Shown one piece after another: positions 17,157 through 58,030 of a stretch of 64,000 bases of DNA. The DNA is taken from assembly GCA_947561395.2 (NCBI GenBank), contig OX387182.1, positions 43,827,949-43,891,948 of the forward strand, in the 5' to 3' direction. Both the position numbers and the translations under genes were made by a program. The notes below the pieces were generated by a model. It did no database searches. It was given only the letters and a program-made list of their open reading frames with translations, and had not been told where the DNA came from. How positions within the stretch are numbered: the stretch's first letter is position 1; each line of letters opens with the position of its first letter. This DNA is from Buxus sempervirens (lineage: Eukaryota > Streptophyta > Magnoliopsida > Buxales > Buxaceae).

Positions 17157-18976
17157 TGTGAGACATGGAAAAAAATCAATTTAATGATTTCCTCAATCAT
17201 CACACGGGATTAAATAAAACAAAGAGTCGCCACCATTCAATTTAGGTGTGAATGGACACCAAAATATTAAATAAGCACAAAAGGCAATTTTAGGGCAAAA
17301 TATCCCTCCTAAAAAAACAACCAGAGATGGGTAAGGGGATTAAGTTATGAACAGGGGAAGGTGTTACGCACCCCTATTCATCCACACAAGGTGGTTGCCA
17401 GGTATTGTTCATGTTTAAAATAAAGGAAAAAGCTTGCTATAAAAATCAGGAAAATCACAAAAAGAAGATAAAAATATATGGTTTTTTCATATGAATATTC
17501 TGATTGATCCAGAACTATCAAATATGATCATACCATTCCTAGGGTTTCATGATCAAAATACAATTGAGATAAAATCAAATAAAATCAATTTAAAGTGAAA
17601 AATCCAAAAATCTGGCTTCAAGCTAAATTCTAGAAATCTAGAAAAATATGATTTTTATAAAATATTTCAAAATTGAACTTGAATAGTCCAGGACATAGAT
17701 AAAGCCCAAATTTCACATTAAATCTGAAAATCAAAACCAAAAATACCCACGTTGATGAAGAACACCAAAAGGGGAGAATTTAGACCGTAGGGTCTTATCT
17801 CAATAATGAAAAACAATTTAAAAAAACATCTCATGAAACCCTAGAATTTATTTTCAGGCTTCTTGATTCAGATCTATCATATTGATCATGATAAATCCAA
17901 GATCATAGCCTAAAATCACAAAAATCACGAAAACAGTGCTGTAGGTGCAAAAGTGGTGAAAATCCAAATTTTGGAAAAAGAAGGGATCTCATGTTATAAA
18001 CATCATAGATTCATGTAATTCATTCAGATATATCATAAAAAGCATTAAAACATTATCAGGATATTCAAAATAGCCACATCTCGCAAATTAGAGCACATGG
18101 GGGTCTACCCTACGGATCCACCTGTTCTCTTTTCCCCTAGTTCTCTCTTCACGTTTTACGGCTAGGGAGACTCTTGAGGTACTTAGAGATAGGTTTGGGT
18201 ATACAAACACAATCACAGGCCTTATTCTAGAAAAAAGAGAAAAAAACAGATATGGGGTTCTATTCTAGGGATCCACCTGTTCCCCTTTCCCCTAGTTCTC
18301 TCTTCACGTTTTACGGCTAGAGAGACCCTTGAGGTACTTAGAGGCAAGTTTAGGAATACCAAAAAAACAGATATGGCCTTATTCTACAGCAATAGAGATG
18401 ATCCTATTACTTCTAGAATTGAAGACAGAAAATAAAAAAGGATCGGGGACTTACCTGGATTGAGCAGGCAGAGCAGCAGGAGTTCTTCTTCTTCTCTTGG
18501 GAGCTTCTTAGAATTCCTTGGACTCAAAATTTCGTGGCCCTTAGCTAGAGGAGAGAGCCTCTATTTATAGACACACCCAGGGGCAAGGCTGGTCCAGAAG
18601 GATATATCCTGATTCTCAAGATAGAGTGAAAATTGGAGATAATGCCCATCCATAGCCAACCAAGGTGGCTTCAGCGAATAAAACACTTAATTCGCTCGTT
18701 TAAAGATATATTGGACTTCAAATAAAGCTCGGAAATCGAGAGAAGGACAAAACTTGCACGTGTCTTTAATGCCCGTAAATGATTTACGATCCAATGGTGA
18801 CCGTATTAGTATTACGGGCGCGCCTGCCCGTAGACATTTTGCGGGCGAGATCGGCCCGTGAAGAAAATACGGGCAAAGCCTGTTCATTCTATTTTTAGGC
18901 CTTTTTGACCTGTTTTAAGTTCTAATTACAGGTTTTTATTATTTTCTCATTTGGCAGTGCAATTTGGGGTGTCTAA
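17157..18976 (-). repeat. 3' LTR of element B
   Basis: It is about 1820 bp. The minus-strand U3 begins at about 18976 and the U5 end is TGTGAGACAT at 17157. The TATA box is CTATAAATAG at 18561-18570 (minus). The outer U3 end reads GTCTAAA where the 5' LTR has GTCTACA. A PBS-like GAGTCGCCA lies at 17224-17232 inside U5. Two similar sub-blocks near 18110-18190 and 18255-18340 share CCACCTGTTC and CACGTTTTACGGCTAG. Confidence 0.95.
18771..18874 (-). promoter_or_regulatory. Palindrome array GCCCGTA-N-TACGGGC in the U3 of B (3' LTR)
   Basis: Four imperfect palindromes of about 20 bp occur at a roughly 27-bp period, for example CCGTATTAGTATTACGGGC and CCCGTAGACATTTTGCGGGC. They lie 100-200 bp into U3, upstream of the TATA box. 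The 5' LTR has the same array at 38270-38373. Confidence 0.85.
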
Positions 18977-19326
18977 AGCTGCCCCCTCTTTGCTGGTAAT
19001 TGGAACCAATTACAAGCAGAGAGCAAAAAGACCCACCAATTGCACTTTCTGAGATTTTTGTATAATCAATTGCACTTTGCAAGGATTAAATGGTTGATTT
19101 TTGAAAAAAGAATTGATTGTGGAAGATTTGCTAAGAAATCCCTCAGCTTAAGGGCCAAATCTTCCTCTCTCCTCTCACTGAGCACTTGTGGGCTATGAAG
19201 TGAGATTTGAGACAAAATTTTTAAACAAAAGTGGGTAAGGTGGCAATCCTTGCAACTTACAACTAATACAAACATTAATCTCCTAAAAATTGTGAGAAAA
19301 TGATAAAAATATGCTTTTTTGGCTTT
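18977..19326. other. Polypurine tract of B and flanking non-coding sequence
   Basis: Next to the 3' LTR the minus strand reads AAAGAGGGGGCAGCT, a good plus-strand primer. F has a similar tract at its 3' LTR (55717-55729). The remainder to 19326 holds no gene. Confidence 0.75.
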
Positions 19327-19430
19327 GCCCGTATGGTGCTTACGGACAGACCCTGCCCGTAGAGGGTTCACGGGCGACTGGGACCGTAGTACTTTCACGG
19401 GCGTCTGATGTCCGTACTGATTTTACGGAT
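19327..19430 (+). promoter_or_regulatory. Palindrome array in front of antisense gene I of B
   Basis: Four units of the B palindrome occur in tandem: CCCGTATGGTGCTTACGGAC, CCCGTAGAGGGTTCACGGGC, ACCGTAGTACTTTCACGGGC and TCCGTACTGATTTTACGGAT. The array matches the U3 array in unit length and spacing but not in spacer sequence, so the repeated feature is the palindrome itself. No strong TATA box follows. Confidence 0.8.
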
Positions 19431-20779: not shown

Positions 20780-23682
20780 ATGGCCCGCCTTAGATCGGCT
20801 TCTCGAGATCCTGCAGATGAGCCTTCCTCCTCGAGGGTTAGGCGAGATCCTGCTGATGTGGCCTCGTCTTCGAGGGCCGAGAGGGATTCTGATTCTGATA
20901 TCCCAGATTTCCCTTCTGGGGATTCGCGTGAGGCGACCCCAGAGGTATACTCTAACTTTTCTGCAATTTCCAATCCTTTCCCAAAATACATCTTCCTGAT
21001 TCTTCAATTATTTTCTTTTAGCTGGCTGTTGAGGCTTCTAGCAGAGATAGGAGCCGTAGCAGACGCAGAGCTGGAGGCAGAGATGGAGGCCATGATGAGG
21101 GCCATAGAGGAGGCCGTAGAGGGGGCCGTGGCAGGGATGAGGCCAGGACCAGGGTTGAGATCCCTGAGGAGGTGGCTGCCCAGATTAGGGATACCGATCT
21201 TCTGCATGGTTTGAGGACTCATCCCTCAGCATGCGTTAGGGCGGATATCCCTTTGGAGTATCCGATGTCCCATTATAGAGGGAGCTGGGCCAGCTTTACT
21301 AGATTCTTGAGAGCTTGCAGTTCGGCCTACCGTCGGGAGCTAGGATTGTATGGTTTCGGCATGTTTATCACTATCCCGGACGTACGCTTAGATCGAGCCC
21401 TCATTGCCGCATTGTTGGAGAGGTTTTTCCCAGAGACATTGAGCTTCCACTTCCCAGATATTGAGATTGGGATCCGGCCTTCTGATTTCACGCTCATCAC
21501 CGGGATTAGGATGATCGGTGATGTTATTCCAGAGATGATGATGCCAGAGGCCGATGAGATTGCTGGTTATCTTGGATACATTGTGCTGCCTCCTGAGGCA
21601 TGGGATCGGGGGAGAGCTAGATTGTCTCTGACATGGTTGAGAGAGACTTTCGGGAGGAGACAGTTTGGCCAGCTTGCTGCCGGTGACCATGTTTTCCCAT
21701 TTGCCTTCAGATTTCTTTTTCTGTATATGATGGGATCTTGTTTCTTCCCAGAGGACACGACTTCAGTTAGTCCTCACTTCTTGAGTCTTCTGGGAGATCT
21801 GCAGCGGGCGAGGAGGTATGCATGGGGTCCGCTCATATTTGGTACTATTCTGGCTGGCCTGCGCCGATCAGTGAGCGGCCTCTCTACATCCAGAGGGGCT
21901 GGAGTTGGGTGCAGGTTCTTCTGGCCCTTCTTGCAGGTGAACCTTATTTCCTTTCTTTTTCTCTCTTTCTCTTTTCCTTATCTCTCCTTTTCTATTCTTC
22001 TGACTATTTTCTTCTTTCTTGTAGTTTTTTGCTAGGGTTTATATACCCTATTTCCGCCCTACCTCTACGATGCCTGAGGAGACGTATCCTATGGCACTTA
22101 GATGGTGTCATGTAGAGCATGACTCTGAAAAGAGTCGTCCCAGGTCCGCCCGGGCCCACTTAGACAGGTTATACCGGTCTGAGGTAATCTTCTTTAATTC
22201 CTCTACTTTTTCTTTTCTTTTCTTCCTGGATCGCATATCTGATGTCTTGTTCTGTTTTCAGCTATTTGTCCCCAGGATGGAGGACATTCATGAGGTGCTG
22301 GCCCTGCAGGCAGCCAGAGATGATGCATTTGTCCCTGACCAGAGACGACAGAGATACCAGTTCTTTATTGGTCAGCTGGGCAGCATCTGGTATTGCGGCG
22401 AGCGCTTCTTCTTTCAGCATGTGGGAGAGCCACGGATTCCTGCCATCCCGCCAGATACTACTCCTTCCTATCCTCCCATGCCTGTTGATCCTGCCCAGTT
22501 CTTAGATTGGACTGAGGCAGAGACATTATTAGAGGAGGGTGACTATGATGCCTGGTTCAGGCGAGCTTCTGTTGGGTGCCTCATGTCACCCATGCCTGTC
22601 CATGGCGGAGTCACGGAGATAGGAGGGGTAGTGATTAGGGCCTACGACACCACGGTATGCCTTCTTCCTTTTCTGATCTTCTATTTCTATTTCATTAACA
22701 TTTTTCTGACTTCTTTCTTTGCTATTTCAGGAGGCTCAGTTGGCCGAGATCAGGTCTCGCTATGCTGATTTAGAGCGCCAGCGTGATGCCGCGATCGCTG
22801 AGCGGGACGCCCTCTATATCACTATTTCATATCTCCGGGGGCAGCTAGCCAGAGCCCAGGGCCAGGAGGGTCCATCTGATGCACAGGACCAGGCGGGTCC
22901 ATCTGATGCACAGGACCAGGCGGGTCCATCTGATACTCAGGTTAATTTCTTCTTTTATTTCCATTCCTGCTTTTGTATTAGCCTATCTTGTTCTGACTGA
23001 ATTTTTCTCTTAGTTTCAGGAGTACACAGCTGGCCCTTCTTCACCTGCTTCACCCGTGCCCATGCATTTCCGGGATGAGGTGTTTTCTGTGGCACGGGTG
23101 GAGTTCGTGACGTCTCCCAGTCCAGTGGAGGTTCCTGCAGCAGAGCCCGAGGTCGAGGCTGATATTGTACCTGCTGCTGAGGACGTGCCAGAGTCTGCCC
23201 TATTAGCTGAGACTGCTCCTGCTGCATCTGCTGATATAGATATGGATTCGGCTATGGACGCCGCTGGGGTAGAGCCTACCGTGGAGACTGCGGCGATGGA
23301 GGAGGCTACAGCTGATCCTGTAGAGCCTGGGGTTGATGCTGATGCACCTGGGACCTCTGCTCTTGCTAGTCCTGATATGGAGGATGCTGAGGTGACGCAT
23401 GCTGCTGTGGATCCTTCTGTGGATTCTTCCCATACAGATTCTGATCCCGATTCTACGGGATATGTAGATACTTCAGGGTACGTCCCTCCTGATCATCCCA
23501 CTGCTGGCCTTGTGCCTTTATATATGTGGCATGATATTCAGTCTGTTTTGAGCAGGATGACACGTAGCACAGCCCGCAATGTTGTGCGGCATGTCTTTGA
23601 GCGCAGGCGATCTTCAGGCCGAGGTCGAAGCAGAGGACGAGGCCGTGGCCGTAGGGGCGGACCTGCATGGCCATTAGATTAG
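20780..23682 (+). CDS. Antisense gene I of element B: spliced PMD-like protein with coiled coil and RG-rich tail (834 aa)
   Basis: Six coding exons: 20780-20944, 21022-21936, 22025-22183, 22262-22654, 22731-22940 and 23020-23682. All five introns are GT-AG, 77 to 88 bp, and phase 0; every exon length is a multiple of three and the 835 codons have no internal stop. Residues 1-100 are charged, Ser/Arg-rich and Gly/Arg-rich. Residues about 105-360 resemble the plant mobile domain (RGSWASFTRF, FFPETLSFHFPDIEIGI, WGPLIFGTILAGLRR). Residues 545-585 form a coiled coil, followed by three GPSDAQDQA-type repeats. An acidic stretch and an RG-rich basic tail end the protein. PMD proteins occur in plant genes (MAIN, MAIL1, with roles in TE silencing) and in transposons. 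The exon 3 acceptor has an alternative at 22035 that would break the frame. Nuclear nucleic-acid binding is inferred. Confidence 0.85.
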
Positions 23683-24137
23683 GATTCTTCCATGTACCTT
23701 TGTATTTTTTGGCAAAAGTGATGTAAACATTCATATATATAAAAGAAGTTTGATTTATTTCCATTTGTGTTCTTTCTTCTTTATTTTCAGTATTTATTAC
23801 CTGATGAATGTTAAAACAGGGACAGGTGAAGCTTAGGGAAACAAAGAAATTAAAACTTCCCACTTTTTTGCATTTTTTCGAAGGAACTGTACTTATACTA
23901 CGAGCAGGCTATGCCCGTAAAGTTACTACGGGCGTGCTTTGCCCGTGAATTTTCCACGGTCAAGCGTGTCCGTAATTCCTATACAGGCGAACCTTGCCAG
24001 TAGTATAATTACGGAATTTACTGTCTTACGATTTTTTCTATATAAACTCCTAGGGAACATCATTGTGACACTTTTATTAATTGAAAAACTCCCTGAGCAC
24101 GTCTTTTCTCGCTTTCCTTGGCTTCTTTGACGCTTCC
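23683..24137 (+). promoter_or_regulatory. Intergenic region with palindrome array and TATA box of gene II (B)
   Basis: After the 3' end of gene I, the B palindrome recurs as an array at about 23897-24014, for example GCCCGTAAAGTTACTACGGG and GCCCGTGAATTTTCCACGG. A TATA box, CTATATAAACTC, lies at 24037-24048, about 100 bp before the ATG at 24138. This looks like a self-contained promoter for gene II. Confidence 0.75.
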
Positions 24138-25942
24138 ATGGCTTCCCCTACGCCTCTTTCTCCTGCCGTTGAATCTCCTCCTGCAAGACAACCTGTTAGA
24201 TCAAAACCTCCTAATCTTACCAGGTACAATATTGTGGATTCCTTTTATGATAGATGGGTTAACTCCATGACCCTTGATGAGGAGATTCGTTGGGATTCCA
24301 TCCACTTAGGGCACATCCTACACCTCCCTAAAATTCCCTTTAAGTGGGAAATCATTGAAGCTTTGATTGGCCACTGGGTACCTGAGCTGAATCTCTTCCG
24401 TTTTGATGATAAAGAGATGACTCCCACCATAGAAGAAATTGAAACCATCCTTGGCCTAAGATTTTCTGAAAAAGTTGTGAACCCACCCCTAAAGCTTAGT
24501 TATAAAAAAGAGGCTTCCACTTTCTTGGGTATAGGGAAGAAGGACTTAGGAAATTCTGATGCACTATTGACCTTGTCCAAGACCTTTTTGACTGAAAAAC
24601 TTCTGAGAAGTAATGACAAGGACTCTAGGTTTAATGCATTGACCCTGGTAGTGGTCAATCAGCTGCTTTTTCCACGGGGTGATGACCAGATTGACTTGGC
24701 TCTCATCTCAGTTATCTGTCAGGTTAGGGAACGCGAGAGGTTAGCCCCTATGATCCTAGCAGAGATATATCAGGCTCTTACTGATTGTTATTTCAGGAAG
24801 AAGAAGCGCTTCCTTGCCTGCGCCCCTATCCTACAGGTAAAAATATGCATATATATTTTTTTTTCTTCTTTTTTTTTTTTTATTCTTTTTTTTTTATTCT
24901 TTCTTTCCTTTCTTTTTCTTCTCTCTGCTTCTTCTTCTTTTTTTTCTTTTTTTTTTCTTTTTTTTTATTTTATTTTTCTCTCTTTTTATTTTTTTTCTTT
25001 TCTTTTTTTCTTTTTGGAAATAAATTGAAATACTCCCTTTTTCTGCAACTTTGGTTGCTTGACCATCTTAGCCAGGTTGAAGAAATAACTCGCCGCTTCT
25101 TTCCAAGATTGAAAGTTCCTGTTTTGATGAGCAATAGGGGATGTCCTAACATCCAAGGTGGCAAGCAAGGCTGGTTCACTTTCTTGGGTACTCTCCAGGA
25201 TGATCAAGTGAGATGGCCTGGCACTTATCAGCCTACTCCAGAGACAGTGATTAGCTTTAGGGATAAAAACTTTCTGGCCCTAGCAGGCTTGAAATCTGCT
25301 GTTCTCTATCTTTCTTTGAGGGTTCTTCGGCAATTTGGAGCGACACAGGGAATTATGATCCCCACTGGTTATGAGAGCTTTGTAGGGCCACTTACATCAG
25401 CCACCATGGGGCTAAATGCTCAATTAATGAAAGAGTGGTCCTATGTTTGCTTTCTGCGGGGTCCAGTCTTTTCTGAGTTCCATGTGAAGGACTATCATTT
25501 CTGGATCAAAGAACAGGTGCAGAGTCATGCCCCAGTACCAGAGGATCCTCCTGCAGTTCTTCCTCCTACTTATGAAGATATTCTGGAGTCAGAAAGGGCA
25601 ACCCATAAACGGCTTCAACAAATATGGGTATGGGAGGCTCAAGAACTTAGGATAAAAGTCCTTGTTCTGGAGAGGAAACTTGAAGAGCAAAAGTCTATCC
25701 GCATTGCCATGGAGAAGAAACTTGAAGAACAAAGGCAGGCTCATCGCTTTGAAGTCCGAGTGATGCGGAAGAAGTATCAGGATTCCTTGGCTGACCTTAG
25801 GGCGTTGAAGAGCAAGCTTTCTTTTTCAGATGAGGTCATCTCCTTTTTGAGTGATCCTGATGCAGAGGGTGCTTCTGGAATCATTGCAACTCAGGCAGCT
25901 AGGATTAGGGAGCTTGAGGAGCAGTTAGGGAGTAGGGATTAG
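24138..25942 (+). CDS. Antisense gene II of element B: DUF7745-type protein with coiled coil (530 aa if spliced)
   Basis: Exon 1 is 24138-24836 (donor CTACAG|GTAAAA) and exon 2 is 25049-25942; the intron, 212 bp, is a pyrimidine tract. I chose ATG 24138 (MASPTPL); an upstream in-frame ATG at 24081 is possible. The N-terminal half has NSMTLDEEIRWDSIHLGHIL, LIGHWVPELNLFRFDDKEMTPTIEEIETILGL (DUF7745/PMD-like). The C-terminal half includes VLYLSLRVLRQFGATQG and a long coiled coil with repeated ERKLEEQ. The expected acceptor reads CTGCAA instead of CTGCAG (25048), so splicing is probably impaired. A's ORF1 is the same family without the intron; F has a truncated relative at 48520-48918. Function is unknown. 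Confidence 0.75.
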
Positions 25943-26910: not shown

Positions 26911-29900
26911 TCATGGAAAATATCTCTTTACTGCGTCAGAGTTGATTGGCTCAAGAAAATCCTTCCCATCCATTTCCGTTAAGATGAGAGCACCCCCTGA
27001 TAGGACCTTCTTGATTATATAAGGCCCTTCCCAGTTTGGTTTGAACTTTCCACGAGGATCCTCCAAAAAGGGTAAAATCTTCTTTAATACCAAATTTCCT
27101 TCTTGGAAAGTTCTGGGCTTTACCTTTTTATTGTAAGCCCTGGCCATCCTTTTCCGATATAATTGGCCATGACTAAGTGCTTTCAACCGCTTTTCTTCTA
27201 TTAAATTGAGTTGATCATGCCTAGACTGTATCCATTCAGCTTCTTCTAATTCAGCTTCCATTAGCACTCTTAATGAAGGTATTTCCACTTCCACCGGTAA
27301 AACTGCTTCCATTCCATAGACTAAGGAGTATGGGGTTGCCCCTGTAGAAGTCCGGATTGAGGTTCTGTAAGCATGTAGAGCAAGTGGCAGCATTTCATGC
27401 CAATCTTTAAAACTCACTACCATTTTTTGAATAATCTTCTTTATATTCTTATTTGCTGCTTCCACTGCCCCATTCATTTTTGGTCTGTAAGGCGCTGACT
27501 TGTGGTGGGTAATCTGAAATTGTTCACACATCTTCCTCATGTCTTTGTTCTTAAGGTTGGAAGCATTGTCTGTTACTATGGCACTTGGCAAACCATAGCG
27601 GCAAATGATGTTGTACTTCAAAAACTTAAGAACATGGCTACTCGTAATGTTTGCATATGAAGATGCTTCTACCCACTTGGTGAAGTAATCGATTGCTACA
27701 AGTATAAACCTGTGTCCATTTGATGCCTTTGGAGAGATCATTCCAATGACATCTATACCCCACATAGAAAAAGGCCATGGAGATGTCCTACTGTGTAATT
27801 CACTTGGGGGTGCATTCTTGTTATCCGCGTACACTTGGCATAAATGACATCTTTTAACGTGCATGTAGCAATCATGCTCCATAGTCGACCAGTAATATCC
27901 CAATCGCAGAATCTTCTTGGCAAGCATGTGCCCATTCATATGAGGTCCACACACTCCTCCATGTACCGTTTCAACTATCCTTTCTAACTCAGTTTTTGCA
28001 ACACATCTAAGTAGTATATCATTGTGTGATCTTTTGTACAACTGCCCACTACTTAGTAAGAACTGTCCTGCCAGTCTCTGTATTGTTCTTTTCTCTGTAG
28101 AGGTGACATTTTCTGGTAAACTTCGATCATTTAGGAAATTCTTAATGTCTTGAAACCATGGTACTTCATCTTCTGGGGTTTCTTCTAGAACAAGGCAGTA
28201 AGCTGGTTCATCCCTGACTTCAATTTCCAATTGTCTAATATCAACACCTTCTGGCATACTGACCATTGAAGCCAATGTTGCTAGAGCATCTGCAAACTGG
28301 TTTTTGGCCCTTGGCATATAATTGAAGGAAATTCGAGTAAATTTATTGCTTATTTCTTCCAAATACTGGTGATAGGGGATCAATTTGTGATCCTTGGTTT
28401 TCCATTCACCAGTTGTTTGGAAGATGATAAGACTCGAATCCCCATATACGTCAAGTTCCTCTACTTCATGATCTAAGGCTGCTTGCAACCCAATTATGCA
28501 TGCTTCATACTCTGCTATATTGTTCGTGCATTGAAACCTTAACTTCACTGCGATTGGGATATGTGCCCCATCTGGCTTGATCAGAACAGCCCCTATTCCA
28601 TTTCCATTCATATTAGCGGCCCCATCGAAAAACATTTGCCATGAGCTTTCATCTTCTTCCTCTTCAGCAAACAGGATTGCCTCATCAGGGAAGTTGGTCT
28701 TTAAGGGTTGGTATTCTGGTAAAGGGTGTGCAGCCAAGTGATCTGCAATGGCTTGACCCTTAATGGCCTTCTGTGTGATATAGGTGAGGTCAAATTCAGA
28801 GAGTAACAACTGCCACTTTGCTGTTCTGCCAGTTAAAGCTGGTTTCTCAAATAGATACTTCAAAGGGTCCATGCGGGATATCAATAAGGTGGAATGACTA
28901 AGGAAATAGTGCCTTAGTCTCTGAGTTGCCCATACTAAAGCACAACAAGTCTTTTCTAGAGGGGAATATTTTGCTTCATATTCTGTAAATTTCTTACTCA
29001 GGTAGTAAATCGCCCTCTCCTTTCTGCCTGTATCGTCATGCTGTCCTAAGACACACCCCATTGATGTCTCCAAAACTGACAAGTATAAAATCAATGGTCT
29101 TCCTGGAGTGGGTGGTACTAGCACAGGTGGGTTCAATAAATACTCCTTTATTGTGTCAAAGGCTTCTTGGCAATCATTATTCCAGACTGTCGGGTTATTC
29201 TTTCTTAGAAGTTTGAAAATTGGTTCACAGATAGCGGTGAGTTGTGCTATGAACCGGCTTATGTACTGAATCCTTCCAAGAAAACCCCAAACTTCCCTCT
29301 CGGTTCTAGGTGATGGCATTTCAATGATGGCTTTAGCTTTAGCTGGGTCAATCTCAATTCCCCTTCTGCTTACTATAAAGCCCAACAATTTTCCTGATGT
29401 GGCCCCAAAGACACATTTCGTAGGGTTAAGCCTTAGACTGTATTTCCTAAGCCGGTCAAATACCTTCTTCAAGTTGATCAAGTGGTCTTCTTCCTCACAT
29501 GATTTGGCTATCATATCATCCACATAGACCTCCATCTCCTTATGGATCATATCATGGAATAAGGCTGTCATGGCCCTCTGGTAGGTTGCCCCAGCGTTCT
29601 TAAGTCCAAATGGCATGACAGTGTAGTGGAAGGTACCCCAAGGGGTGATAAAGGCTGTCTTCTCTTGGTCTTCCTTAGCCATCTTAATCTGATTGTACCC
29701 AGAAAACCTGTCCATGAATGAGAACAGGCTATGTACAGCGGTGTTATCCACCAAGATGTCTATGTGTGGAAGTGGAAAATCATCCTTTGGACTTGCCTTA
29801 TTCAAATCTCTATAATCTACGCACATTCTGACCTTTCCATCCTTCTTTGGTACTGGCACTATATTTGCAAGCCATTCGGGGTATGTGGAAACTGCTAAGA

Positions 29901-34193: not shown

Positions 34194-34378
34194 GGTAAAG
34201 GAAAAATATCAGTGTCCATTTAATCTCATTCACATGCCTAAGAATGCCTATGTGCAAGCTGGGTGAACACGAGTTTGGATTTGTTTCTTTTCTTTATTTG
34301 CTTCTTTTTTTTTTCTTTTTTTTTTTTGAATCGTTGGAATATTCTAGGGCTTCCAACAGGTCCCACAAAAGAGAGAAA

Positions 34379-38476: not shown

Positions 38477-38481
38477 ACCGT

Positions 38482-45259: not shown

Positions 45260-45412
45260 ACAGGACTCCCCAGAATATGCAATTGCGTGTATTCCACGTC
45301 TTACTAAGCGAGGTAGTAAAAACCCCAAAATCGACTAAATCCCTCTTGGGTTGACTCATTCTAACCAAGGGTTCTATTGGGCTGAGCACTGTCCCCAGCA
45401 GAGTCGCCAGGC
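45260..45412 (-). other. Leader stub and primer-binding site of element E
   Basis: About 135 bp of leader related to A's leader (40555-40686), then GTCCCCAGCAGAGTCGCCA at 45391-45409, three bases from the LTR. The rest of E's internal region and its 3' LTR are missing. Confidence 0.8.
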
Positions 45413-48400
45413 TGTGCGCACCCGATTTCGGCCGCACGGCGAGGCGCACGCGTAACGACGCGTGCCTCGGGATTTGTTTGGAGTCGCCACTGCCTGATGG
45501 GGTGCAGGCAGACACCGGGGTGCCTAAGTTCTTCTATTAAGGCTTGGTCTGCGGCTTGAGATTCTAAGTACATTCTCGGTTGCGGTCTGGGGAAGTCCGT
45601 AGACACCCCAGTCCACCCCGTCAAGTGACGGGTCCCATAAGTTTCCCTAGTTTGAGTCAACTCAGTTGGTCTCTCACTCACCCGATGCCTAATCCAGCAT
45701 TCAATTTTGGTTAAGTCTGGCGGGACCGCCAAAGTGGTGTGGGTCCCTTTACTTGATTTTATCTTCTTATTATTGAATGAAGTGAGTCTAATTGGGTGGG
45801 CCCCGTTGGAAGGCCCACGGATCCCTTGGTGGGCTTGGTTGAGCCCACGTGTCCCTTGGTGGGCCTCAGTCTAGCCTGAGAGGCCCTTTGGCTTTGGTTC
45901 AAGTGAATTGATTTTACTTTGAAGTTCAGTTTGGTTATTTAAGTGATTTCTATGCACAAGTGGGCCAGGACTGTTTGTGGGCCCTTGAGCGGGCCACACA
46001 GTTGGTTACCAAGTAGTTTTGATTATCTTTCTTATCTGTGCCAAAATGGGCCAAGCATTGGGCTTGGGGCCCTTTACCTGGGCTCGGGCTTGAAAGCCCA
46101 AGACTTTCTGAGATAGGGTTTGGAAACCCTACACTTGTTTGGTTTAATGGGCTTAGTGGGCCCGACAGGCCCTGCCCATGGTCTCGGCCAAACCATACCT
46201 AAGTCTAGATCAACATGCTTCAAAATTGGGCTTGGGTGGGCCTCCACTGGTGTGGCCCACTCAAATGGATTGATTTTATCTTTATTTAACAAAAGGAGTT
46301 TGTCGGGCTTGGTGGGCCCCGTTGGAAGGCCCACCGGGAATCAATTTGGACCGGGTGTCCAAGGCCCATCTTGGGTTTCCGGGTGACCCGGGAACCCTAT
46401 TGGTTCATCCGGTTCGGTTTGGAAATAAAGCCCACATTCAGCAATAATCACATAAGAAAATGCACAAAATTGACACCCTATCAAGAAAAAAATTGGCTCA
46501 TTGTGCTGGGTCCAAGGGGAGGTACCCGGGGGCCCTGTGGGCGAAGCGGAGCGGAGCCCACGGGGTGGGGTACCTCCCCGTACCAAGGTACGAGTTGGAT
46601 GCGCAGCGAAGCCCCCCGCGGTATGGTAAAGGGTATTCTTGGAATTTTCAAAAAAATAACAATTCGGCCTGTTTTGGACCTGGCGCTCACCTTCTGAGGT
46701 GAGCGCCAGGTGGGCGCCAGAACCGGGCGAAATTTTGACCTGGCGCTCACCCGATACCAGGTGAGCGCGAGCTGGGCGGGAGGTGAGCGCGAGATGGGCG
46801 CGAGGTGGGCGCCAGAATTTCACTTGGTTTTTAGGTGGGCGCGAGCTGAGCGCCAGGTGGGTGCCAGCTCGGCAGGAAGTGAGATGAAAGGGGCGCCCAC
46901 CTCCTAGGTGAGCGCCAGGTGGGCGCCAGATGGGCGGCAGGTCACTGCAATTTTCAACTCTCTGTTTTTTTTGAGATCTCCATCTCTGGCCGATTTTTTT
47001 TGGTCTGTAACTGTTCCACTAGCCTCCTAACATGCTCAGAACACTTCCCAACTAGTTTTGGATTTAATCTAAACACGTTTTTATGAAAATCAAACCTCCT
47101 TGTAAACCTGCAAATCCGAACACCTAAACACTAACAGAACATGCAAGGAAGGGGACTGGGGGCTTTATGGGATACAGAAGATGCAAACATCAGGGAGAAC
47201 ATGCTCCCCCCTCGAATCACACAATCACTGCTACTATACGAAATAACAGAAAAGAACAGATAGCAATGGACTTATTTATTTTGGAACAGGGGCCATTGAG
47301 AACATTACCTGGGTGTTCCTAACACCTCTCCGAAGTGGGTGAAGCCTCCATGGAGCGCGCGAGCGGCCGCCGGAGCAACCTTCTTCTCACACCAAGAGCG
47401 CGGCCTCCTTCGGATTTGACTAGGAAGAAGAGGAAGGGAGGGGACCTGTGTGTCTGGTCTTTATCTTCAAAACCCCGAGCCCAGAAAAATGATGCCGAAC
47501 CCTAGAATACCAAAACCAGAGAATGCCCGGCCAAAGAAAAATCTCCCAACAAAAAATCCAAACCCCGAATGCTGAAGAACAGCAAACCCTCAAAGGACCG
47601 ATCCCGGAAAACCCAACCAAAATTTTCCCAACCCCGAAATCAGCCAACCCCCTGCAATGAAGACTCTCGCGGCTTTTATAGACAAGGGAAATGGGGTGCC
47701 GCTCACCTTGGCGCCCAGCTCAAGGTGAGCGCATACCCCCTGCCACGTTCGCGCGAGCGACCGAATCATTTCAAAATAATAAATGCCGCCGCTCGTTTGT
47801 TTTTAAAATCTGAAAATTAGGATATGGTCCCTGGGATATTTAGGTTTAATATTATTTTATTCAGATATTTTCAAATACTTTCAGATTGGCCCTGGGATAT
47901 TTTGAATGTTTGGATATTTATGGATTTGATCCCCGAGATATTTTTCTGCGCAACTCGCCACGTGTGCAGCTTTTTGCCACGTGCGCAGTTTGCCGGTTTT
48001 GCTGCTCGGGAACTTCGCCAGCTCATATTTTCTTCATCCGGGCTCCGATCTGGGCAAACTTAGTTTCATTAGAATCGTATCGGAGCCCTCCATCCCATGA
48101 CCTAGGGGTAGGCCTCCGGATCGGATTTTAGCAGAAAGTCAACTTTTGGCTCCGCGCAAGTTTGACCGCCCGCAGAACCTTCATCCGGACCCCGATTCCC
48201 ACAAACTCAGTTGCGTTGGAACCGTGTCGAGATTCTCTATCCAATGATATGGGGCTAAGCACTTGGCACGGAATTCTAGGAAAAGTCAACTTTCGGCTCT
48301 CCCTTAAGTTTGACTGCCCGCCGAACCTTCATCCGGACTCCGATTCCAGCAAACTCAGTTGCGTTAGACTCGTGTCGGGATTCTCTATCCATTGATATAA

Positions 48401-48519
48401 AGGAAGGTGGCCAAATATCACTTAATCAAAAAGTCAACTTTTTGTCCCCTCGAGGTTTGACTTTTTGCCAGGGTTTTCATTTTCAGCAATTCCAGGGGTG
48501 CAAAAATAAGGTGCTTACA
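45413..48519 (-). repeat. LTR of element E (3.1 kb), 5' LTR or remnant
   Basis: It runs from TGTGCGCACC to GTGCTTACA. TATA on minus: CTATAAAAGCC at about 47671-47681. A palindrome array of GGCGCTCACC...GGTGAGCGCC type lies at 47699-47733 upstream of TATA, and a larger one at 46681-46940. Subrepeats of about 148 bp are at roughly 48020-48440. It is inserted in exon 1 of F's gene II; flank CCAAG at 48520-48524 has no partner because the other end is lost. Confidence 0.85.
46681..46940 (-). promoter_or_regulatory. GC-rich palindrome array GGCGCTCACC / GGTGAGCGCC in the E LTR
   Basis: Units include GGCGCTCACC-TTCTGA-GGTGAGCGCC, GGCGCTCACC-CGATACCA-GGTGAGCGC and GGCGCCCACC-TCCTA-GGTGAGCGCC, with many GGTGGGCGCCAG half-sites. 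It occupies the place of the 41754-41857 array in A's LTR. Confidence 0.8.
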
Positions 48520-48918
48520 CCAAGAATGTAGAAGCTTCTTTTTTGTAACTGGGCCTAAGAGGTGGATTCACCACTTTCTCATCAAACCTCAAGCCCAGGA
48601 TGGTTTCCACCTCCTCAATGGTTGGGGCATCTCATGGTTCCCGAAACGGAACAAGTTGAGGTCAGGAACCCAATGACCAATCATGGCCTCTATAATCTCC
48701 CACCTGAAGGGAACCTTGGGAATAAGCAGGATGTGGCCTAGATTAGTAGTACCCCATCTCCTCTCCTCATCTAGGGTCATAGAATTAACCCACCTTGTGT
48801 AAAAAGAATCCGCAGGGTTGTACCTAGTGAGATTTGGGGGTTTTGATCTAAAAGGTTGTTTTGCAGGGGAGGCAGTGTGGACAGACAATAATGGGGCAGA
48901 AGATGATCCGGATTCCAT
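48520..48918 (-). pseudogene. Antisense gene II of F (DUF7745), exon 1 remnant
   Basis: Start Met at 48918 (MESGSSSAPLLS); an in-frame Met exists at 48990. Sequence RSKPPNLTRYNPADSFYTRWVNSMTLDEE and MIGHWVPDLNLFRFGNHEM matches gene II of B. A frameshift lies near 48625; the true frame then goes on as LGLRF..KVVNPP to KEASTFLG at 48520, where the E LTR cuts it. Confidence 0.85.
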
Positions 48919-49027
48919 TGGAGTTGACGGGAGCAAACTAGAACTCAAGAGGAGGAGGAAAAAGGCGAAAAAGGGGGTTTCTAAACTCAAAAACTCGTAA
49001 AAAAATGCTCAAATCCCGAGGCTGGTT

Positions 49028-49190
49028 GCATTTATAGCATCTTTTAACGTATCCGGTAACTCAGACCGGATACAAAAAGCTTTATTAATATCCGGATAAG
49101 TATACCGGATACAAAAAAGGCTATGAGTATCCGGTATGTTATACCGGATACAAGGACCAATCAATGTATCCGGTATGTCAAACCGGATAC
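49028..49190 (-). promoter_or_regulatory. Promoter of F gene II: TATA box and four-unit palindrome array
   Basis: TATA on minus: GCTATAAATGC at 49028-49038. Upstream (49049-49190) are four units GTATCCGG-N8/9-CCGGATAC, for example GTATCCGG-TATGTTATA-CCGGATAC. The same palindrome sits in F's own LTR and before F's gene I. Bases 49191-49399 hold nothing recognisable. Confidence 0.85.
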
Positions 49191-49399: not shown

Positions 49400-52300
49400 C
49401 TACTCCTGTGCAGGATCATCCATGCGTCCTCGGCCGCGTCCACCTCTACGGCCTCTCCCTCGAAGCGCTCTGCCCCTAGAGTAGGCAAGAATACGCTCGG
49501 CTGCATGGCGAGGATGCCGACCCACCACCTGCTGGAGCTGATACTCCAGGCAATACTCCTCGATGTCCGGGGGCAGAGCAGGAGTGGAATCTGGGGAGGA
49601 AGCCTCTGGCTCAACAGCAACCGGCCCAACAGAACCCTCAGCCATAGCAGGCTCTGCTCCCGCAGCTCCAGAAGGCCCGGCATCAGAAGAAGGGCCAGGA
49701 TCAAAAATATCTGTACCAAATGGGAAAAATCAGGAATTGGGATACTAAAATGAATAAAAGAGAAGAAACTAAGGAAAACATACCAGCAGGCACTATGGGG
49801 TCCGGATCCACCGAGTCAGCAGCAGGGACCTCCTCCGGCTCAGGAACCATCACTGGAGATGAAGGATCAGCAGATGGGACATTCACTAGAGCTGTAAGTT
49901 TGGCCCGGACCGCCCGAAGACCGCCCAACCCAGCCCGAATAACAGCCCGATTTAAGAAATAAGTTCGGGTTTGGGTTTGGGCCGGGCTCAATCTTGAGTC
50001 CGAAGTTGAGTTCGGGTTGGGCTCGGGTTCACAAGGTACAACCCGAATAACCCGAAATATATATACCACTAAAACCCCCTCCTGCAAACTTCCATACGAT
50101 TGTCTCCAGCAAACCTAAAAGTTTCTTGTCTTCTCCCATATCTCTACCATGAAAGTTGGAATTACTCGCCCCTCTCAGTGACTTACTGTCCCTCTCTTCT
50201 ATTATCAATACCTCACATCTCAAAGACAACCTAGCTAGACAAACCCCCAACAAAGGAGCTCGATCAGCAGGAGCTAGCAATACAGTTGCTGTCGGCGTCG
50301 CTGTCAATACAGTGGGATACAGTTCTAGCAGCAAGGGATTTGCGATTGCTCACAAGGGATTTGCGATACAATTCCATCGCTCACAAGTCACAAGGGATTT
50401 GCGATTGCTATTTTTGTCAAATCGGGCATCTCTCTTTAAATTGGACATCTCATCTTTCCCCATTTGTTCACTGCTTTCAGGTACTATTTAATTCCTCTCT
50501 TTTCTAGTACTTGATCTGGATGAGATTCATTAATGTGTGCTTGGGAGGATTTGTTTCTTTTCGTCGGCTATGCACCATATAATCTAAAATTATTTAACTT
50601 TTTTACTACAAAGTTAGCTCAGATATTTCAATCCCCAATCTTTAACTGCTAGATGCAAAATTTCATTAAAATTTGATTTCCAATAAGGTAGCAAAGAATA
50701 AAATCTTGTTACTTTAGTAGTATTTTATTTTATGTTATTTTTAACATCAATATATATCTCCTAAAATCTTGATTTATTGTTCTTGTTTGGTTATATGCAA
50801 ATGAGTTATGTGTTTCTTACGTAATTTCGTGGTTCTAATATTTGAAACGTAGATTCTAACTTAGCCACAAAAAAAAAAAAAAAAAAGAACGTAGATTCTG
50901 AAGTAATTGGAAGAGATAGGAAACATGAATATTAAGTCTATTTAAAATTACAAAAGTTGATTGATTTTGTAAAAGGTATTATTTTTAGATTAAGGTTTGA
51001 ATACTTAAACAATGTGAAAATGCAATGAAACTAATTCTGGAATTTCAAATGGGGTAGGTCCTGTATGCAACATTGCAATTTTTGTGAAACAGTGATTAAG
51101 TGGGAAATGTAAGGATGCCTTGCTAATCAAGTTATCATTTTCTATCTATTGTTTCTTTGAGAGTAGAGGATGCCTTGTTAGGATTAATTCTGCTATTGTA
51201 TTTGTTGTATTACTATTAATTCCATGTGTTATGATGGATGGTTGCATCAGATTGGAAGACATGTGAAACTCATAAATATCTTAGTGAATATTTTGTTCTA
51301 AGGCTCTTTACACACATAAAAAGTTTGGTGGACTTATAAAGATCATTTTTTAACCTAATACACAAACAAATCAATGTATGCCAATAAACTTTATTATATA
51401 TATAGAAATATTGTAGTCTTATATATGTGAATGTATCATTGTATCAAGTAGAAAAAAAAGTTTGGGTTGACCCGAACCCAACCCGAACTCAAGAAATAAT
51501 TTTAGGGTTGGGTTTGGGCTCAAAGAGTTTGGGTTAGGGCAGGCCGAGAAGAGTTTGGGTTCACCAATTTTAATTAGGGTTGAGCCCGAACACATTGAAA
51601 CCCAGCCCAGCCCGCCCTACTTACAGCTCTAACATCCACAGGATCCGTAGCCCGAGCAGGAGACAGGTCAGGAATGAGGAAATCATGGTCGAAGGCAACA
51701 TCCTGATCTGGGACCGAGCCCTGAACAAGGCAAACAAGCATATCAGAATAGCAGAAACAGGAAAATGAAAGAAATGAAAATATGAGAAGGCCAGATACCT
51801 GTCTAGCCTGGAGCTCAGCAACCAAGGCCTCCAGCTCCCTGATCCGGGCATCCCGCTGGGCCACGACCGCATCGTGCTCAGCGATCATATCATCGATCGC
51901 AGCCCGCTGGCTCTCGAACCGGTCCCGAATGGTGTTCAGCTCGTGTACCTGCCAACAAGAACAGAAGCATGGTCAGAAATGCATAAGGAAGGAAAAGGGG
52001 ATGAAAATGGGAAGAATACAAGGCTTACCGTGTCCTCATGGATCCGGATAAGGATCCCGCCGATCTCTGTCACCCCGGCACGAGTGGGTCGATCCATCAA
52101 GCATCCAATAGATACCCTCTGGAACCACTCGTCGTAATCTCCATCTACTATGAGCCCCTCCGCATCCATGAAATGATCGAGATGATCCACGTCGAAGCCG
52201 GGAAGGAGAGTATCGGGACCCACAGGAGGAGGCGGAACGGGGATGCGAAGTGCGCCCGTGTGCTGGAAGTACAGGCGCTCTCCTAAGTACATCACCCTAC

Positions 52301-53858
52301 CAAGCTTCCCAAGGAAGCACTGGTAGGGCTGACGTCGGAGATCTCTCTCAAAAGCATCCTGTACTGCCATCTCACGGGCAACTCCGACATCCACGTCATT
52401 TGGACGGGATAGAATGAGCTGCAAAGAAGTAAAGTGGTCAGATACAGTCAAGAGGCAGAAAAGTAAAAGGAAAAGATAGAGGGCTTACATCAGATCGGCG
52501 GGCACAGTCTAAGTGCACCCGGGCAGTACGAGGCTGGCTCCTACAGCATCTCGAACCTGGGCCGACCATCGCAGGGCCACAGGGAAATCCGCAACCTCAG
52601 GAACCGGGGAGGGGCGGAAGAAGGTCATATAGGTGTACATGAACACCTAGCAAAAGAAAAATCAGTCAAGAAAAGATAAAGCCTAAGGAATTAAACCAGA
52701 CAGATGAATGCAATACCTGTAGAATCTGCCAGAAGAACCGGCTGCTGACGCCATCACCTCTCGGAGATGCTAAGCCTCAAACCGCTCGGCACAGCCCGGC
52801 CAGGATGGTCCCATAAATGAGTCGACCCCAAGCCAGCTGGCGGGTCTGGCGGAGATCCCTCAAGGCATCCAAAAAGAGTGGACTGACGCTAGTGGTATCC
52901 TCCGGGAAGAAGCAGCTCCCCAGCATCAGCAAGAATACGTGCCGGAAGATAGGCACAAAGGCTGTATCCTCCACGAAGATGGTCTCGTGCCTCCGCTCAA
53001 AATGACGAGCCAGACTCTCCCGCAGCCAACTAATGGAGAGCCGGCCACTCCGCCCATCCCAAGCAGCAGGTGGCAGGGCCTGATATCCCAGAAGGAGGCC
53101 GATGTCCTCCGCAGAAGGTCGCTCCAAGACGAGGGTCCGCCCCGTCAAGGGAATGCCGGTAATCATCACAAAATAGGAAGGGCGGATCCCTAGCTCCACG
53201 TCCGGAAGGTGGAAAGACTGAGTCTCTGGAAAATACCTCTCCATCATGGCGAATATAAGTGGGCGATCAGCTCTGAAGGAAGGAATGCTGATGAAATGAT
53301 CTAAATGGCACCTCCCAAACTCGCGCCTGAGGGCCGGAGAAAGCGACTGGGCCAACTCACTGAATCTCCCCCAGCTACCTCGTAAATGGGAGGAATGATA
53401 GGGAAGCAGCACATCTGCCCTGATGCACATAGAGGGGTGGCTATCCAAGCCACTGAGGAGCTCTGTGTCATGAACAGATGCCCTCAACTCGTCAGAGACC
53501 CCTGACAGAGCTACAGCAGTACCCTCCTGAGCCGTACCTCGGGCTCTGCCTCGGCCTCTGCCACGGCCTCTCTCGCCCTCAGGGGCCTGATCCTGAACTC
53601 TGCCTCTGCCTCGACCCCGAGCCGGTGCAACCACGGGCTAAATTTCAAGAGAAAGGTGTGAAGGTTGTGTGGGAAAGGTGAATAGAAGAAAGAAAAGAGA
53701 GAAAGAACTTAAAAGCCTACCTCAGCAGAGCTCTCCCTGGAGACATCTAATGGCTTAGACAAGGTGGCACTGGAACTCGCCTCTGCCCGAGCCCGCGAAG
53801 TGGAGGGCTGATCAGCAGGGTCAGCCTCCTCCCTAACACGGGAACGACTCCTAGCCAT
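49400..53858 (-). pseudogene. Antisense gene I of F: spliced PMD-like gene, disabled
   Basis: Exons on minus: 53721-53858, 52717-53637, 52489-52646, 52029-52418, 51799-51948, 51720-51632 continued at 49886-49794 beyond the hAT insertion, and 49710-49400. Splice sites keep GT-AG and match the positions in gene I of B; one extra intron (49793-49711) splits the last exon. The PMD-like region (LRGSWGRFSEL, YFPETQSFHLPDVELGI, WGRLIYGTILAGL), coiled coil (HDAVVAQRDARIRELEALVAEL) and Arg/Gly-rich tail are conserved. Damage: TGA at 52777-52779, a one-base loss in exon 3 (158 bp versus 159) and the hAT insertion. Confidence 0.85.
49887..51631. mobile_element. Non-autonomous hAT-like DNA transposon (1745 bp)
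   Basis: Terminal inverted repeats TAGAGCTGTAAGT (49887) and ACTTACAGCTCTA (ends 51631). Flanks are 8 bp: ACATTCAC (49879-49886) and ACATCCAC (51632-51639), one mismatch. Subterminal repeats of the CGGGTTGGG/GCCCGAAC kind occupy both ends; the middle is AT-rich with no transposase ORF. It interrupts an exon of F's gene I. Confidence 0.88.
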
Positions 53859-55047: not shown

Positions 55048-55112
55048 TTATAAAACCTGGTGTATCCGGATACACAGACCGGATACACACGGGCCCTTGA
55101 TTATCCGGATAC
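55048..55112 (-). promoter_or_regulatory. Promoter of F gene I: TATA-like box and palindromes
   Basis: TTTTATAAG on minus (55048-55056) is preceded by GTATCCGG-ATACACAGA-CCGGATAC (55062-55086) and a shorter TATCCGGATAC (55102-55112). Confidence 0.8.
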
Positions 55113-55320: not shown

Positions 55321-55716
55321 CAAACTTGTGCTATAATTCTTACTATTTTCTCAAAATCCCTATTTTGTCTTGAAATCCACCTCACATCCACGAGAGCTCT
55401 GTGGAATTTAGGACAGCCTTGGGAAATGTGCCTGGTCAAAAAGATGATATCTACTCAATTTTTAACTTGGTTTGATAAAAAAATCAGTTTTCAAAAAATC
55501 CTATTTTTGGGCTTAAAATCCACTTCATAGCCACGAGAGCTCAGTGGAATTTAAGAACTCTTGGAGAGATGCCCCCCTTAAAGTTAGGGCTTTTTGGCAA
55601 ATTTCCACCAAAAAATTGTTTTCTACAAAATTGAATTGAACCGAGCAAATCATGCTCAAGGGAAATGCAATTTGGGCTTGTCTACTCTTTGCAGCTCACT
55701 GCTTCGCGGCTCCCGC

Positions 55717-55729
55717 AAAGAGGGGCAGT
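55717..55729 (+). other. Polypurine tract of element F
   Basis: AAAGAGGGGCAGT directly precedes the LTR start TGTAGACACC. Matches the tract of B (AAAGAGGGGGCAGCT). Confidence 0.85.
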
Positions 55730-58030
55730 TGTAGACACCCCAAATTGCACAAACAATCATCAAAAATCATTATCTCCTCGAAAGCCAGCACAGAAATTGA
55801 AGAAAATAAACTTTTACCTGTATCCGGATACTCAGGCCGGATACAAGTACTCCTTTCTGTATCCGGTTACTCATACCGGATACATGTGAGCCTTAGTGTA
55901 TCCGGTACCATGTACAGGATACCTTAAGGCCCTTTTGTATCCGGTCTGATATACCGGATACATTGAGTTTGCTCAAAATTAGGGTTTTCCGAGAGAAATC
56001 ACTTGTTACCATCATGTCCCTCATTAAGTGAGGGGAAATCTCGGAAATGACCTTAGGGTTAAGGTTGGGGGGTTCTAGACATTAAGTTGTGTCTACCAAT
56101 GACCTTAGCCTTTGCCTATAAATAGGAGACTCCTCCTTGAGCAAAGGGGAACCAACTCTTGTTTTGAATTCTCGCAAAGAAGAACTCCAAGAGAAGAAGG
56201 AAATCGCTGCGGGAGTGCTTCCAGAATCCAGGTAAGCCTCAAACTTGTCTTTTATTTTCTGTCTTTACATTCCTAGATCTAGATCTCTTCTTCTACCTTT
56301 CTGTAGTGTAAAGCCTTCTTTGTGTGTGGAAATCCTTCCCCGGCTCAAAGTATCTCAAGACTCCCCTAGCCGTAAAACGTGAAGGCGGATCTAGGAGAAA
56401 CGAGACTGGGGATTGACCCTAGTACTAGAACCCATGTAGCATAAGGCTTTTGAATGATTGAAAACCGTTCTATAATCAAAGTACCCTTGATTATCTTGAA
56501 GAACCGTGTTTAACGGGGAGAGAGAACAGAGGGAAACGATAATGGAACGGAACCCTAGGCTATGCTAGAACCTATCTTGTTGAATCTATATGCATGATAT
56601 GTGGTTGTATTAATCTTACTTGGTTTTTCACTCTTGCACACATATTACACTTTTTTGGTGAATAGGCTCACATTTGGGGATTTATTACATTCATTGTGAT
56701 AAATCTCCAATAAATGGCCTCAATCAAATTCTGAAGTGTTTTTAAATGTTTTTCGAAGGTTTTGGATTCATCTCACACGAATCTCACACACTTTATAAAT
56801 TTTCGGATTTGATTTTCTTCAAAAGTGGCCTAACTGGACAGCACCTGTACCCTTACTTCGGACGCTCATAACTTCATCGTCCGGATTAATTTTGGAGCAA
56901 TTCTAGAACCATGGAAAAGGTGAGGCTGTCTAGTTTATGTCTACCAAATTTCATAAAGTTCCATCAAACGGATTTTTGACACCTCTCTGTCGAAGTTAAG
57001 TGGACAGTTCAGGTTCAAATACAGAACTTGTCACTTCGACGGAGCGCCATGTGTTCGTTTTAAGTCCGATTCGTGTGATTTTTGTTTCTAAGTACTCCTT
57101 TATGAGTCTATTTTCAAATCTAGTTGGTTTCATAATTTTTGGATTCCATTTGAATTATTGGTAGCCGATTTATTCAGAACTGTTCATTTGTACTTTTCTG
57201 GGTAAATCTGTGATCTTCGGGGCCTGTTCGGGAGACCACCCAAGGCACATCCGAAGGGATTTTTGTATGAGGCTAGTTTCTTTTGAAATATGGCCATACA
57301 GACTTCAATCACACCAAATTTCGTGGACTTTTATGGAGTGGATTGTTCTAGACAATTTTCCAAAGTTGTCCACTTACCGCTTTTAAAAATCCCCAGCAGC
57401 AACTTCAAAGGAGCATAACTCCTAGATTTTTCATCGGAATGAAGTGAAATTTTGCATGAGACTCTTATTTACCCTAATCTTTCAAATGAATTTGGTTTGG
57501 TTAAATTTAGAATTGGATTTGAATGATTTCAAGAGAAATTGCCTTACTTTTACCAAACTTCCCGGATTTGATGCAACTTAGTTTTATGCAACCTCTACTT
57601 TGATTTCCATCTTTTGAGATCTTCCAGAAGTGATATTGACGTAAGAGAAGATCTAAAATCCATTTGGATCTTCATGTGAATATATCATACACTTGTTCCT
57701 TTTTCAAGGCTTTTTCATGATTTTTAGCAAGCTTCTTATTTTCTTTTTAGCATGAACATACACTTGGCAACCACTTCGCGTGGATGAATGGGGGTGCCTA
57801 ACACCTTCCCCCATTCATAATCTAATCCCCGTACCCATCTCTGGATTTGATTTTCAAGTAGGATTATTTTTATCCTAGAATGTTTCTTTTTTTACTTTTT
57901 GCTTATTTTTAATCTTTTGGTGTCCATTCTCACCCCAAAATCATGAATGGTGGCGACTCTCCCAATTTTGCGTTAAGCCCGTGTGTTGACGGAGGGATGA
58001 TCATTCCGGTGATTTTTCCCATGTCTCACA
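55730..58030 (+). repeat. 3' LTR of element F (2301 bp)
   Basis: TGTAGACACC to ATGTCTCACA. Ends match those of B, but the length and body differ. Palindrome array GTATCCGG...CCGGATAC at 55820-55961 and TATA box CTATAAATAGG at 56116-56126. PBS-like TGGCGACTC at 57951-57959 in U5. The G LTR fragment at 59611-59769 is the same family, opposite orientation. Confidence 0.9.

Follow-up and report, generated by a model that had tools for sequence, protein, structure and literature searches.

Palindrome arrays common to the long terminal repeats and antisense promoters of Ty3/Tat-type retrotransposons in Buxus sempervirens: candidate operators for an element-encoded protein

A 64,000-nucleotide stretch of the Buxus sempervirens genome (contig C1, 43.83-43.89 Mb; hereafter the window) contains two long terminal repeat (LTR) retrotransposons, B and F, in which regular arrays of one short palindrome recur at the LTR and at the promoters of two genes, I and II, encoded antisense to gag-pol. 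Element B (17157-38476, minus strand) is a complete Ty3/Tat-type element, as read from its LTR pair, its ends and a 5-bp target-site duplication, ACCGT, at 17152-17156 and 38477-38481. Its 3' LTR (17157-18977) and 5' LTR (36655-38476), both on the minus strand and delimited by LTR alignment and by their ends, are 99.67% identical. Pfam matches identify a gag polyprotein with a G-patch (30501-34208) and a pol with reverse transcriptase, two RNase H types and integrase (26914-30549), both on the minus strand. The presence of both RT_RNaseH and RVT_3 in pol is Tat/Ogre-like, dual RNase H being named as a Tat feature in the part of the literature drawn on here (PMC9289625). Genes I and II (20780-25942) lie between pol and the 3' LTR on the opposite strand, a Retand-like arrangement. 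Gene I (20780-23682, plus strand, several exons by eye) contains a PMD domain (PF10536, E 2.4e-17) within the open reading frame (ORF) 21022-22032, and its 3' parts are by eye coiled-coil-like and RG-rich; gene II (24138-25942, plus strand, two exons) is a DUF7745/PMD gene (PF24924, E 2e-21) with a second half that is heptad-like by eye. Element F follows the plan of B in the opposite orientation, with a gene I (51939-53637, minus strand) bearing a PMD exon at 52780-53637 (PF10536, E 6.5e-12) and a gene II region (45364-48920, minus strand) whose DUF7745-like start is recognised by sequence comparison with B and whose frame is broken in this copy. PMD-A clades are described, in the portion of the source used, as encoded only by Gypsy elements (PMC5418596), and PF10536 is found in gene I of both B and F.

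A preliminary description of the window had listed eight arrays and claimed one palindrome type per element at the LTR and at both antisense promoters. Pattern scans located all eight arrays at the positions given, and the claim holds for B, for F and for one element of a third, AACCG type described below. The B unit is GCCCGTA-N7-TACGGGC (7-N7-7), as first described except that only spacers of 7 were seen where 7 or 8 had been given. Four such units, at steps of 28, 27 and 28 bp, form the arrays of the 3' LTR (18771-18874) and of the gene I promoter (19327-19430), and the other LTR has its own array at 38270-38373; five units, the first degenerate, precede gene II at steps of 28, 28, 27 and 28 bp (23885-24016, with TATATAAA next at 24039), and the leader carries three good units with degenerate ends at a step of 28 bp (35298-35435). 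The F unit is GTATCCGG-N9-CCGGATAC with arms of 8 bp; here too the palindrome was as described, with a spacer of 9 in place of 8 or 9 and a step of 39 bp. Four units are present at the F LTR (55820-55961; LTR start near 55730, TATA at 56116) and four at the gene II promoter (49049-49190; TATAAA at 49036-49031 on the minus strand), while the gene I promoter retains one perfect unit and one left arm 39 bp on (55062-55112; TTTTATAAG adjoins on the minus strand, by eye). Two F-type arrays are absent from the preliminary description, one of three units at a step of 39 bp (41754-41856) and one of five units (42940-43185), beside which CTATTTATAG at 42920-42929 reads as a TATA box on the minus strand. 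When the window was searched blind for clustered similar palindromes, most of the arrays were recovered, and five resampled windows gave no cluster; the search also picked tandem-repeat regions near 1292-6361, 15030 and 34333-35200. The last of these, the tandem repeats of the B leader, contain a different small palindrome, TCTGAAA..TTTCAGA, which falls outside the CCG-N11-CGG pattern described below.

Arms are conserved between the arrays of one element (81% identical in B, 98% in F), while spacers (29% and 43%) and linkers (31% and 33%) vary. These identities, together with the half-site changes below, support for B and F the earlier suggestion that arms are selected rather than merely copied, and simple copying of units is disfavoured in both elements. 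Half-sites were compared in 116 distinct B-type units, each having another unit at a distance of 26-29 bp and no more than two mismatches to the half-site per side. Position 2 was changed on one side in 56 units and on both sides in 18 (18.2 expected), and positions 1, 3, 4, 5 and 6 likewise showed no excess of two-sided change. Conservation is highest in the CCG core and its following T (93-98%), and spacer positions 2 and 6 are A or T in 97% and 93% of units. The half-sites are thus independently constrained at fixed spacing, with position 7 of 7 as the exception, as in a palindromic operator read by a dimer; judged from the letters, this is the picture of a dimer on A/T-rich, presumably bendable DNA.

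Both unit types are abundant across the genome (676.5 Mb, 247 contigs searched), with 11,282 exact sites for GCCCGTA-N(5-10)-TACGGGC and 20,492 for GTATCCGG-N(5-13)-CCGGATAC, the reversed-pattern control giving 0 in each case. A third type, AACCGYA-N(5-10)-TRCGGTT, has 7,898 sites against 55 for its reversed pattern. Although wider ranges were allowed, spacers were uniform among the first ~50 sites on contig C1 listed per type, at 7 (B), 9 (F) and 7 (AACCGYA). A core, CCG-N11-CGG, is common to all named types, which differ in the outer flanks GC (B), AA (third type) and GTAT (F); each flank occurs in thousands of genome sites, as a family-private motif in non-coding regions. The same core with a CT flank, CTCCGTA-N(5-10)-TACGGAG, has no genome site (20 for the reversed pattern). 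By coordinates only, the F sites listed include five sets of paired LTR-like arrays ~20 kb apart, in each of which a gene II-like array precedes the second LTR-like array by 4.7-5.7 kb. Gal4-type sites, CGG-N11-CCG, also place two CG-rich triplets 11 bp apart and are read by a dimer; the triplets here face the other way, and no Zn2Cys6 domain is present among the Pfam matches to window proteins. Some spacers recur across arm types: (A)ACTCAG is found in units of differing arms (window 41754, 42940, 49049 and 55820; L012, L015 and L049) and CTTCAAG with both GC and AA arms, suggesting that units share descent and that their arms have changed.

The core was first noticed on three loci (L020, L028, L035) and then tested on further gene II copies, using 651-bp stretches upstream of 20 copies picked from 118 scored; the pick was meant to exclude those at 98% identity or above in the search with B exon 1 described below. 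Together these stretches have 44 exact cores, whereas 200 shuffled sets averaged 0.6 and never exceeded 4, and among CCG..CGG gaps of 0 to 30 the next highest count after gap 11 is 5. At least one core is present in 17 of the 20 stretches and at least two in 14, compared with 0.025% of shuffled stretches having two or more. By type, nine stretches have the GC flank, five AACCGYA, and one each AACCGAA, GTATCCGG and GTATCCGA. Counting steps between neighbouring units over the loci examined, with repeated stretches counted once, the GC type favours 28 bp (42 of 60 steps; 27 bp in 9), the GTAT type 39 bp (16/20) and the AA type (n = 30) 28 bp in 12, 41 bp in 5, 39 bp in 4 and 38 bp in 3. The difference between 39 and 28 is 11 bp, about one helical turn, which would keep dimers on one face of the DNA.

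The placement of types follows the elements. The GC type occupies both LTRs, gene I, gene II and the leader of B, and the GTAT type the LTR, gene I and gene II of F. In an AA-type element (L063), the 7 kb before the gene II promoter contain a PMD gene I 68-72% identical to that of B, with AA-type units at the place of the gene I promoter and also ~110 bp inside the likely LTR end; in three further AA-type loci (L020, L028, L035) another AA array follows gene II on its 3' side. AACCG-type arrays in L067, the stretch of 7 kb upstream of L049, seemingly belong to another element and were not used. A tree of gene II exon 1 (17 rows) splits no operator type: the three GTAT rows group with supports of 95/92, the GC rows with 81/80, GC plus GTAT with 96/98 and the AACCGYA rows with 88/99, while the AACCGAA row (L069) has no resolved place beside the other types and five arrayless one-exon rows stand apart. 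This match of type and clade is what co-evolution would give, and equally what plain descent would give. Exon 1 has 11 positions that differ by type (11 rows), two of them among all three types, which are too few rows for a claim of specificity. One gene II copy (L055) is preceded by sequence resembling the B gene I promoter, as if gene I between the arrays had been deleted.

Gene II arrays mostly stand close to TATA-like boxes. The scan caught the last unit in 14 promoters (L020, L035, L039, L048, L051, L053, L056, L057, L061, L063, L064, L066, F gene II and the 42940 array). In these the box starts 4-22 bp past the array, and in 13 of them 12-22 bp past it; the 42940-43185 array, for example, ends 12 bp from its minus-strand TATA box. 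The pattern gave no match after the arrays of L028, L049 and L065, and the scan missed the last unit in L052, L054, L058, L062 and B. In the LTRs, TATA follows the array at a distance of ~200 bp in B and ~155 bp in F. The first ATGG is 120-131 bp past the array in most TATA-bearing promoters, with an earlier one at 32-33 bp in L051 and L066. A conserved ACGTCATTKTGAC-like stretch follows TATA, ~40-60 bp past the array, in several clades (e.g. L048, L057, L061, L064), and we take it to resemble a bZIP (as-1) site.

Pairs of gene II exon 1 sequences with estimable dS have ratios of nonsynonymous to synonymous divergence (dN/dS) of 0.04-0.26, with a single pair above 0.11, and dS between operator types is often saturated; on these ratios, gene II is under purifying selection. 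A search for exon 1 of B gene II (5,810 candidates) returned at least 150 copies at 98% identity or above, B's own included, and among the matches listed 146 lack a stop and four have one. A 530-amino-acid gene II query found 15 distant proteins, and all 13 with a named source are from Solanum.

We consider that the arrays are probably operators for an element-encoded dimeric, sequence-specific DNA-binding protein, for which the PMD/DUF7745 product of gene II or of gene I is the likeliest candidate; this protein would co-regulate the LTR and the antisense promoters. From the arrangement of sites and genes we infer that a protein binds, which one it is and in which direction it regulates. A private site common to the LTR U3, gene I and gene II would let one protein control all these promoters, and the shared arms of the arrays of one element, beside freely varying spacers and linkers, argue for a trans-acting reader. 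The dimer would read CCG-N11-CGG together with its flanking bases (GC in B, AA in the third type, GTAT in F) across an A/T-rich spacer, and rows of units, often four, whose steps of 28 or 39 bp differ by about one helical turn, would seat several dimers side by side. One protein could then switch on, or free from silencing, both the promoter of the genomic RNA and its own promoters, in a positive autoregulatory loop serving its own family and copies that retain only the sites. The operator reading of the preliminary description gains support in its common operators, in one type per element, in a type that follows the gene II clade and in half-sites that behave as separate DNA contacts; PMD/DUF7745 binding and anti-silencing stay at the level of prediction.

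Several observations weigh against this proposal. Three of the 20 gene II stretches (L050, L059, L060) have no core upstream. Because operator type and gene II clade descend on a single phylogeny, their agreement is no independent proof, and some forks of the tree are weak (81/80, 88/99). The check for LTR and gene I arrays of the GTATCCGA element turned up a stretch (L075) that aligns with an LTR in the wrong orientation, and among the F sites listed one array pair is just 9.5 kb apart (3385845, 3395382) with no gene II-like site between. The TATA scan found no evident box after the B gene I array. Units for the half-site comparison were picked by likeness to the B half-site, and position 7 shows six paired changes against 2.2 expected (p 0.009). 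In the AACCG type, different arrays have some spacers in common (CATACAG, for example) and may have arisen by copying. A search of solved structures returned two matches only, neither significant (E 0.28 and 0.64).

In addition, one DUF7745 clade has no repeated cores, and arrays also occur in stretches where no antisense gene was seen. In a one-exon DUF7745 clade, none of 26 4-kb loci has a repeated core and 11 have a single core, so DUF7745 alone does not imply arrays; all four two-exon loci obtained in the same search do carry repeated cores, at the promoter. The one-exon clade may have lost the circuit or always been without it; otherwise the sites would be read by gene I, or by a different part of gene II. 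Conversely, 12 ten-kb stretches around B-type sites (L005-L016) gave no PMD/DUF7745 match at E 1e-5, and gag, pol or accessory ORF pieces are present in seven of them; at a laxer cut three weak PMD/DUF7745 matches appeared, the best at E 1.6e-4 in L011. Six of the stretches (L005, L008, L009, L010, L011, L014) align with the B LTR, the leader or both, which places their arrays at known sites of B-like elements; these six may be non-autonomous copies or fragments of 20-kb elements. In the other six (L006, L007, L012, L013, L015, L016) GC-type arrays lie beside sequence that is not B-like, with no antisense gene seen; L007 also contains F-like LTR sequence. Since 10 kb is too short to span a 20-kb element, the latter six may be truncated, non-autonomous or from another family. 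The test proposed at the outset, whether arrays are equally common without antisense genes, was run in part, on the one-exon clade and the 12 stretches, with a mixed outcome.

The arrays of these last six stretches are a second variety of the GC type. They are often divided into two groups ~100-111 bp apart, have near-palindromic spacers (YTTGAAR or similar) and lie in sequence that matches F at ~48130-48520 and in some also the ORF 45364-45870. Element B is itself inserted in a DUF7745 gene of the one-exon clade, whose halves flank it at 16425-17180 and 38449-39237. About 200-800 bp 3' of one-exon DUF7745 genes (L022-L046) are repeated stem-loops like GGGTTCTGAATAAAGAACACCC, mostly 60-100 bp apart and with AATAAA or ATAAA in the loop region, at least two being present in 19 of the 26 loci. 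The GGTGTTCT-N6-AGAACCCC repeats at this position were considered as an operator type and dropped, as the spacer on the gene strand holds AATAAA; they are more likely a row of poly(A)-signal stem-loops.

The alternative that best survives is that the element protein is a repressor, binding beside its own TATA box and at the LTR to limit expression and copy number. Autorepression is a common design, and gene II arrays mostly end 12-22 bp before TATA, a position allowing promoter block. We nonetheless regard a repressor as unlikely: the LTR arrays are 150-200 bp upstream of TATA, too far to block, which favours activation or anti-silencing, and purifying selection with many near-identical copies is more readily explained by a factor promoting spread than by one restraining it. 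Less probable still is that the arrays are host transcription factor sites exploited by the element. Plant LTRs often carry such sites, and both the bZIP-like ACGTCATTKTGAC stretch conserved after TATA and the GC-type arrays in stretches without a visible antisense gene agree with a host factor; against it, families in one genome keep one geometry with different outer flanks, arms are shared while spacers differ, the type follows the element's own gene clade, and the CT-flanked site with the same core is absent from the genome. It is improbable that the arrays are simply tandem repeats multiplied by copying inside the element and without a role in binding: Retand elements often carry tandem repeats (PMC11963269), and some AACCG-type spacers recur, yet in B and F the identity of spacers and linkers is close to chance level or modestly higher, with arms, spacer length and step fixed. 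RNA hairpins, or sources of double-stranded RNA in transcripts, are a very remote explanation. In their favour, arms of 7 or 8 bp around loops of 7 or 9 nucleotides could fold, palindromy is kept and position 7 shows paired change; against them, half-sites mutate independently at six of seven positions, units share sequence beyond mere complementarity, and the gene II and LTR arrays lie upstream of TATA.

Returning to an element-encoded activator or anti-silencing factor, the nearest known system in design is VANC, and the nearest in circuit logic foamy virus Tas; the comparisons that follow are with those parts of the cited papers that bear on them. VANC, of Arabidopsis VANDAL DNA transposons, resembles the present case in having a family-private short motif repeated in non-coding parts and an encoded factor (here predicted), both of which vary by family (PMC5735166). 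The VANC21 motif YAGTATTAY, however, stands in one orientation in tandem repeats, whereas the palindromes here have fixed geometry, and VANC acts in a DNA transposon where anti-silencing has been shown, whereas here the host is an LTR retrotransposon, the proteins are PMD/DUF7745 and anti-silencing is hypothetical (PMC5735166). The proteins of B are PMD/DUF7745 proteins and not VANC homologues, and B is not a VANDAL DNA transposon; the comparison with VANC made earlier therefore stands as a likeness of design only, motif orientation, protein family and host element being different. Tas is element-encoded and acts on the LTR and an internal promoter in a positive loop, as in the circuit proposed here, but belongs to another protein family (PMC8670036, PMC4929722); in the present elements the genes are antisense and the putative operators are regular palindrome arrays. 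Retand elements have antisense ORFs between pol and the 3' LTR, with a proposed regulatory role, and tandem arrays in about half; TRP28 is named, and the relevant part of that account describes no cis operators common to the LTR and antisense promoters (PMC11963269). Among host PMD proteins, MAIN and MAIL1 are required for expression of genes with the DOWN motif CATGCAGTTT, direct recognition of which is one of the models given (PMC7156037, PMC9899485). That motif differs in being non-palindromic and in serving host genes, and direct binding to it is unproved in the parts consulted (PMC7156037, PMC9899485).

Two other features of the window were noted. Nested inverted and direct copies, 98.5-100% identical, surround a Transposase_32 ORF (3672-5081) at 634-6615, which looks like a very young rearranged transposon. 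At ~43880-43930, sequence like F gene II is directly joined to the RNase H part of pol, perhaps through an old deletion between two like elements.

The finding is real and larger than the preliminary description had it, and at the level of sequence it points to a private protein-operator circuit. Antisense PMD genes have been suggested to act in DNA binding, regulation or anti-silencing, with no cis partner given in the parts consulted (PMC11963269, PMC5418596), and an anti-silencing use of PMD domains captured by Mutator-like elements (MULEs) is offered there as the authors' speculation (PMC5418596). No report of operators common to the LTR and antisense promoters was found in searches of an open-licence library. 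The arrays are a candidate for this cis partner, with a core and a family code (GC/AA/GTAT). More broadly, and with our confidence falling just short of evenly balanced, Gypsy-encoded PMD/DUF7745 proteins may be an unrecognised class of dimeric sequence-specific regulators, relatives of MAIN/MAIL1, which would read the core CCG-N11-CGG, tell families apart by the outer bases and maintain a private autoregulatory or anti-silencing circuit in each clade, with tens of thousands of operators per genome. If the operator reading is right, this would be an LTR retrotransposon with a private transcription circuit, and would provide both a molecular job for the PMD domain and a natural set of orthogonal operator-protein pairs.

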